DNA from: Patescibacteria group bacterium
GTDB taxonomy: Bacteria > Patescibacteriota > Minisyncoccia > Phycocordibacterales > GWA1-40-21
Length of the DNA: 37,474 nucleotides
Reading direction: 5' to 3'
NCBI GenBank assembly: GCA_003142075.1
Contig: PLOL01000012.1
Span: forward strand, 1 to 37,474
The position numbers and the translations under genes were made by a program. Shown piece after piece: positions 13,071 to 14,331 of the stretch. How positions within the stretch are numbered: position 1 is the stretch's first letter; every line of letters starts with the position of its first letter. The notes beneath the pieces are model-generated. The model was not told the origin of the DNA. It searched no databases and worked only from the letters and a program-made list of their open reading frames with translations.

Positions 13071-13099
13071 AAAGGGCGGCCGCGAAGCGGCCGCCCTTT
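13071..13099 (-). terminator. Terminator of the secE-nusG-rplK operon
   Basis: A 13-bp perfect stem, aaagggcggccgc (13071-13083) with gcggccgcccttt (13087-13099), around GAA. T-rich sequence follows on the minus strand. It separates rplK from the dCMP deaminase promoter. Confidence 0.9.
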
Positions 13100-13108
13100 A
13101 TTCATTTA

Positions 13109-13531
13109 TTATTTTACATCAACACCCATTGATCTTGCCGCACCTTCTACCATTTTCATGGCCGCATTTATGTCATTTGCATTCATATCTACCATTTTCT
13201 TTTCGGCAATTTCTCTAATCTGAGCTTTCGTGATTACTCCGACTTTTTCGGTATTTGGCTTTCCAGAACCTTTTTCCTTTCCTATCGCCTTCAATATCAT
13301 GCCGGCTGTCGGAGGAGTTTTTAGTATAAAATCATAAGATCTGTCTTCATAAACTGTAATCACAACTGGAAGAGTATCTCCAATCTGACTCTTAGTCGCA
13401 GTATTGAATTTATTTACGAAATCACCAATGTTTATTCCCGCTTGTCCAAGAGCTGGACCGATAGGAGGAGCTGGTGTAGCTTTTCCCGCTGGAATTTGAA
13501 GTTTTAATTTTTTTAATATTTTTTTGGCCAT
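13109..13531 (-). CDS. rplK: 50S ribosomal protein L11
   Basis: 140 residues, standard length. The N-terminal domain [34 protein letters not shown] carries the Pro-rich switch helix that contacts thiostrepton-region 23S rRNA. The C-terminal RNA-binding domain includes [18 protein letters not shown] and ends [12 protein letters not shown]. It forms the GTPase-associated stalk base with L10. The gene is last in secE-nusG-rplK and is followed by a strong terminator where rplA (L1) is normally found. A 254-nt structured spacer separates it from nusG. Confidence 0.97.
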
Positions 13532-13562
13532 TTTTTTTATTTATTTAGTTAATCAGAGGCTA

Positions 13563-13746
13563 AGAGCTTATTCAATATCTAAACACAATGTAGAGGCATT
13601 GCACTTGTTTACTTGCTTAAACCCCCAAATTTCCGCTGCAAATTATTCATCTTTCGGCGGTATATCTCGATATGCCTTATCAAGCTTCATAATTTTCGCT
13701 GGAAATTTGACGGTTTAATCTAAGTATTAGATATTTCACAAGCTCT
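13563..13746 (-). ncRNA. Candidate structured RNA / rplK leader
   Basis: The nusG-rplK spacer (13532-13785) holds nested inverted repeats, all consistent with one minus-strand RNA. P1: AGAGCTT+AATATCTAA (13746-13727) with TTAGATATT+AAGCTCT (13582-13563), 16 bp across a 4x4 internal loop. P2: 13716-13701 with 13634-13619, 15 of 16 positions pairable. P3: AAATTAT / ATAATTT (13695-13689 with 13646-13640). P4: GGC-ATATC-GA-GATAT with a bulged GCC (13676-13656). P5: CAATG-6-CATTG (13601-13586). I do not recognise a known family. A ribosomal-protein leader is plausible from its position. Confidence 0.55.
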
Positions 13747-13785
13747 ATTAAATTATCAAATATAAGTTTAAAAGTAAAGCTGAAG

Positions 13786-14331
13786 CTATGACTTTCTTAT
13801 TTGCAATAAATCAAGCTCAACAGATGTTTCCCTTCCAAACATCAACACCATGACTCTAGCCTTTCCTTTTTCTCCGTCTATCTCGCTTATTTTTCCTTCA
13901 AGATCTTTGAATGGTCCATCGACTATCTTCACAGTATCTCCGATTCCAAAATCCACTGCATGAGAAACTTTATTGACATCCATGTTTCCAAGGAAGAAAT
14001 CAACTTCTTTTTGAGAAAGTGGAACCGGGTGAACTCCTGTTCCGACAAAACCAGTAACGCGAGGAGTATTTCTGACGACATACCAAGATTCATCAGTAAC
14101 TGTCATATCCACCAAAATATAACCGGGATATATCTTTTCATCTTCCTCAACCCTTTTGTTTCCTTTTATTTTTATTTTTTTCTCGACAGGAACAACGACA
14201 CTGAAAATCTTGTCATTCATATTCAAAGAATCGATTCTCTGCTTGAGATTTCTTGCAACTGCATTTTCATAACCCGCATAAGTATGTATAGCATACCAAT
14301 GTCTGCCTTCTTCAATAGTTTGTTTTGCCAT
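13786..14331 (-). CDS. nusG: Transcription termination/antitermination protein NusG
   Basis: 181 residues, the normal length. The N-terminal NGN domain (HWYAIHTYAGYENAVARNLKQRI, then KIYPGYILVDM and WYVVRNTPRVTGFVG) binds RNA polymerase, and the C-terminal KOW domain (FGIGDTVKIVDGPFKDLEGKISEIDGEKGKARVMVLMFGRETSVELDLLQIRK, taken in parts) contacts NusE or Rho. It begins 6 nt after the secE stop, so it is in the same operon. The ATG is at 14331 and no SD is visible. Confidence 0.97.
   Translation of the reverse strand: MAKQTIEEGRHWYAIHTYAGYENAVARNLKQRIDSLNMNDKIFSVVVPVEKKIKIKGNKRVEEDEKIYPGYILVDMTVTDESWYVVRNTPRVTGFVGTGVHPVPLSQKEVDFFLGNMDVNKVSHAVDFGIGDTVKIVDGPFKDLEGKISEIDGEKGKARVMVLMFGRETSVELDLLQIRKS

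Follow-up and report, generated by a model that had tools for sequence, protein, structure and literature searches.

What is the folded DNA between nusG and rplK in this small (710 kb) Patescibacteria genome, and does it belong to the operon in which it lies? The window (the whole 37,474-nucleotide stretch of DNA analysed) comes from an organism whose relatives by NusG comparison include named Taylorbacteria and Zambryskibacteria MAGs. A first-pass annotation, made from the letters alone, had noted an overlong spacer filled by nested helices of no recognised family, and had proposed either an autoregulatory ribosomal-protein leader or a small RNA processed from the operon. The structure itself is real: the minus strand of the 184 bp element folds at −62 kcal/mol against −39.9 ± 4.1 kcal/mol in dinucleotide shuffles (z −5.47, with 0 of 200 shuffles as good), its ends are reproduced by covariance-model matches, and the nested helices are all present as described: the closing and second helices, both long, and the inner and side hairpins. 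The plus strand folds more weakly (z −3.84). Rfam returned nothing at the gathering threshold and nothing on the element at lax E-values, so that no Rfam family accounts for it, and a scan of all six frames found no ORF of note. The element is in sense orientation and ends 32 nt from the rplK start; its parts are listed in Table 1. On the other side of rplK, a strong hairpin, GC-rich and flanked by T runs (13071-13099), directly past the gene looks terminator-like on both strands, and the next ORF downstream is deaminase-like, rplA not being directly after rplK.

Table 1. Positions in the window of the element, its parts and the flanking genes
Feature	Positions	Strand	Remarks
nusG	13786-14331	−	TIGR00922; flanks the element
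rplK	13109-13531	−	TIGR01632; flanks the element
Whole element	13563-13746	−	Very probable IS5-type MITE copy with conserved fold; exact ends from covariance-model matches
Inverted repeats proper	13564-13745	−	
Left terminal inverted repeat, 5' arm of closing helix P1, GAGCTTGTGAAATATCTAA	13727-13745	−	17 pairs; 97% of cells paired in 69 copies, double-sided changes at 17/17 pairs
Right terminal inverted repeat, 3' arm of P1, TTAGATATTGAATAAGCTC	13564-13582	−	Same basis as the left arm
P2, long internal arm holding the conserved core	13610-13726	−	Helices 2-9 of the 69-copy model
P2 core, GCGAAAA facing TTTGCAGC	13693-13699 and 13635-13642	−	Conserved in the consensus
P2 terminal hairpin, GGCATATCGAGATATACC	13659-13676	−	Helix 9; 92% of cells paired
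P3, variable side hairpin	13583-13609	−	Helix 10; only 78% of cells paired; length and sequence differ from copy to copy
Right flanking 3-mer, TTA	13561-13563	−	Presumed target duplication
Left flanking 3-mer, now ATA	13746-13748	−	One base off the right-side TTA

The same spacer in relatives was compared as follows (G and L numbers are our handles for genomes and loci). In three members of the genus it is only 53 (G005), 61 (G001) and 63 nt (G002) long and has no element, against 254 nt here; a simple ORF scan recognised no nusG upstream of rplK in G003. As its location is not conserved among relatives, the proposal of a small RNA that is part of the operon finds no support. Two relatives carry other, unrelated palindromes there: a different one of ~100 bp in G004 (L008, ~1365-1460; CCCAGTGAAATA...TATTTCACAGGG), and a third kind in G007, a member of another genus (L013, last 130 bases before rplK; CCCGTAGTAAATTTCAAAT...). 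The spacer therefore tolerates insertions, apparently those of several MITE-like families. Copies 73-75% identical to that in the window are present in G004 and G001 at other sites, beside what we take, from reading the flanks, to be KH-domain-like, pilin-like and lysine-rich protein genes. A different repeat with hairpins, built around GATGCAGAG-TTGGGAAATATCTAATTA, was seen in G003 (L095, L098), where stretches GGAGGTATTCCGACG are common to two sites.

How widespread is the element? A first covariance model built from four copies, in which 22 of 64 pairs had changed on both sides, found it in 37 of 148 related genomes with E-values down to 1e-37 and up to 17 copies per genome. A broader model built from 69 copies detected it in 56 of 380 genomes taken from across the phylum; other classes are among them, and in these classes a ~160-nt form occurs. 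The distribution is patchy and the copy number variable, as for a mobile element. Five copies that differ by few bases occupy five sites in G492, all with matching TAA/TAA or TTA/TTA flanks, which, judged from the sequences, is recent transposition. Diverged copies beside the same gene in two congeners (L262 1251-1434 in G262 and L272 1327-1513 in G357) go back either to a single old insertion that both share or to two independent events. A similar-DNA search of phage, plasmid and viral-contig collections found no element, and a nusG query had no match among viral contigs.

Copies vary in size as well. G024, G033 and G052 contain short ones of 50-126 bp with the ends and no core, as well as long ones of 270-400 bp that nested palindromic inserts have enlarged. 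The core-less copies of 50-75 bp include L188 1090-1139, L189 176-248, L192 215-288 and L201 632-705, most with matching TAA/TTA flanks. Among the enlarged G052 copies of 280-400 bp (L202 193-594, L203 229-509, L204 453-821 and L205 287-635), palindromic units have been inserted in the arms, giving hairpins nested in hairpins.

When copies are printed with their flanks, most start GARCCYRTY...ATCTAAT and end with the complement of that start. The flanking 3-mers, mostly TAA or TTA, are identical in 36 of 88 copies, while re-pairing of the flanks gives an expectation of 16.5 and a maximum of 27 in 10,000 trials; the target duplication is thus a 3-bp TWA. A 3-bp duplication is used by several IS5 subgroups, and IS427-type elements follow a TNA rule. 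The element therefore has the features of a MITE: terminal inverted repeats, a target duplication, a short length without a protein-coding gene, dispersed copies at unrelated sites that are polymorphic between relatives, and ends in common with an autonomous transposon, of which we found one intact and one degenerate example as follows. G203 (L256) carries an intact 852-bp IS with TTA on both sides and two overlapping ORFs, each matching one half of NF033580, IS5 family transposase; one of the ends of this IS, GAGCCTGTTCATAATCTA, is identical (18/18 terminal bases) to element ends in G033 and G024. In G233 (L250), which carries the element, a DDE transposase search uncovered a degenerate IS with ORFs that match DUF4096 and DDE_Tnp_1; it has an end TTA|GAACCTGTTCAAAATCTT and TTA on its far side, and it has 17 terminal bases in common with the elements of the same genome, which end GARCCTGTTCAAAATCTCA. 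Spiroplasma IS relatives (L257, L259) end in AGAACCTGTTTAAA or AGAACCTGTTTAGA, with TTA; the GARCCTATC ends of an ISAba37 copy (L258) resemble those of the G052 elements. Measured against IS5-family members proper, the element has the 3-bp target duplication and, having no ORF, no DDE transposase of its own.

No single genome was found that holds both the element and an intact IS with matching ends: G203 gave no element match with the broader model, autonomous copies sought as end pairs were found neither around the unpaired ends in G033, G024, G052 and G058 nor in G469 or G492, the nearly complete G469 genome has no PF01609 transposase, and PF13586 had no match among 26 genomes. The window's own genome has no match to three transposase models, and its single copy is therefore probably stranded. 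Two other kinds of partner were considered and rejected. The contig ends inside the DDE_Tnp_4 transposase gene adjoining a G058 copy, and the ends of its cyanobacterial relatives had no clear match; for further transposases lying close to copies (G033:C29, and several with TTTGAATTACGAAA ends), the ends are unrelated. Because of the repeats, the duplications, the near-identical dispersed copies and the intact IS with the same ends, we infer both transposition itself and an IS5-type transposase as the enzyme that moves the element; it would most likely recognise the terminal inverted repeats in trans and insert at TWA, duplicating 3 bp.

The element is thus a MITE by all hallmarks, but is its fold simply a by-product of long inverted repeats, with no role as RNA? 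Stable stem loops are common in transcripts of bacterial MITEs (PMC2229807), and movement does not require the core, since there are core-less copies that have the ends and TWA duplications. These points give such a by-product a minor but real chance. Core-less copies also moved, and yet the core is conserved. Against a by-product, among 69 distinct copies, 63 of 63 pairs show the covariation expected of a functional structured RNA (double-sided changes), with 93.9% of cells paired against 31-43% when partners are slid by 1-3 columns, in an alignment that was itself fitted to the covariance model. Clusters below 75% identity, 23 in all, still pair at ~94%, and every pair shows changes on both sides. 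Conservation extends to unpaired loop letters (GYRAAAA facing UUUGYAGC) and to a double GA-n-GA/GA-n-GA loop of tandem G-A motifs, the central pair of which (columns 92/133) is C-G in 33 copies and G-C in 29. Each combination of pair type and sequence cluster being counted once, G-U pairs outnumber A-C mismatches by about 3:1 (110 versus 41 in the core and 33 versus 8 in the terminal helix P1), and the sense strand is more stable than the antisense in 72 of 74 copies. Near equality would otherwise be expected, so these two biases argue for strand-specific use, and they suggest that the interior is under selection on one strand, probably as RNA. The first-pass annotation had named a random or mobile inverted repeat as the alternative that would refute it; we take the element to be such a mobile repeat, missing from the relatives' spacer, but its covariation, far from absent, is strong and strand-biased. 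Strand bias and covariation would suit any single-strand use, including folded single-stranded DNA that serves, for example, as substrate of a strand-specific nuclease or recombinase. Other bacterial mobile elements, namely IS200/IS605 and integron attC sites, do use folded single-stranded DNA, and are a precedent; the 3-base target duplications and IS5-type ends point instead to duplex DNA as the substrate of a DDE transposase, and we regard a DNA-level role of the fold as improbable.

The same interior is also found with other termini (AGAACCCATCTCAAAAATAATG and AGACCCGCTGCGC), which again fits poorly with a by-product of the ends. It might mean that several different miniature transposons carry, as conserved cargo, a phylum-wide structured RNA whose own function, such as acting in trans or recruiting proteins, is selected after insertion. 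We think this rather unlikely. The orthologous copies in G318 and G357, compared with selection after insertion in mind, are highly similar pairs. An autoregulatory rplK leader bound by L11 or another ribosomal protein would agree with the operon position, the sense orientation and the short distance to rplK, but it is scarcely credible, since congeners lack the element in this spacer, copies adjoin unrelated genes, and Rfam gave no leader match. Synteny and orientation likewise contradict such a leader as the origin of the element. Between co-directional genes (n = 43), 23 copies are sense and 20 antisense (p 0.76), an absence of orientation bias that is unlike a cis-acting leader; 14 more copies lie between divergent genes and 8 between convergent ones, a simple, uncurated scan placed 10 of 74 within a long ORF, and the position upstream of a regulated gene that marks ribosomal-protein leaders is not conserved. 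An uncatalogued multi-helix structure with covariation is therefore what survives of the earlier interpretation, and neither of its two identities does.

We are confident that the structure in the window is an IS5-type MITE in the operon with a conserved, strand-biased, branched fold whose likeliest basis is selection on RNA. In the window, the element would have inserted in the coding orientation into the nusG-rplK spacer, and it is presumably transcribed together with the two genes. Copies in transcripts may fold into a compact module, perhaps processed by nucleases or bound by protein, and such a module could make insertions tolerable or tune the stability of the flanking mRNA. That the fold is selected on its RNA transcript for one of these effects is the explanation that we favour, with reserve. 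The ERIC transcript destabilises upstream mRNA, and RNase III cutting has been proposed for Correia/NEMIS (both PMC2229807); by analogy with these two, the likeliest role would be to influence what becomes of the host transcript, insertions thus being tolerated.

Patescibacteria genomes are very small, and the open-access literature searched held no report of MITEs in them, which is not proof of absence. This transposon family, which retains an RNA-like fold throughout a phylum and with different termini, provides a case in which RNA-level selection on a mobile element can be tested. It also cautions that a structured spacer in such a genome may be an insertion and not a riboregulator.

How does the element compare with known systems? 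The IS5-family IS (NF033580 type; L256, L250, L257, L259 and L258) likewise have GARCCTGTTCA-N-AATCT or GARCCTATC ends and TTA or TAA target duplications; they differ in having a transposase, which the element has not, and in having none of its structured core. The bcr1 repeats of the Bacillus cereus group, listed in PMC2267715, are likewise dispersed, of similar size (147-167 bp) and conserved in fold, and the title of the primary paper cited there speaks of mobile-element traits; they are confined to one species group, and the likeness is drawn from their description. ERIC/IRU, Correia/NEMIS, RUP and YPAL (PMC2229807, PMC2267715) are also below 200 bp, mostly intergenic and without protein, and have terminal inverted repeats, short target duplications and transcripts that form stem loops; RUP, like our element, has ends in common with an IS. 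The element is set apart from these four by their published descriptions (the sequence comparison being that with Rfam): it has a branched, loop-rich core that is kept with different termini, a phylum-wide range, IS5-type ends, and a target duplication that is a 3-bp TWA and not TA.
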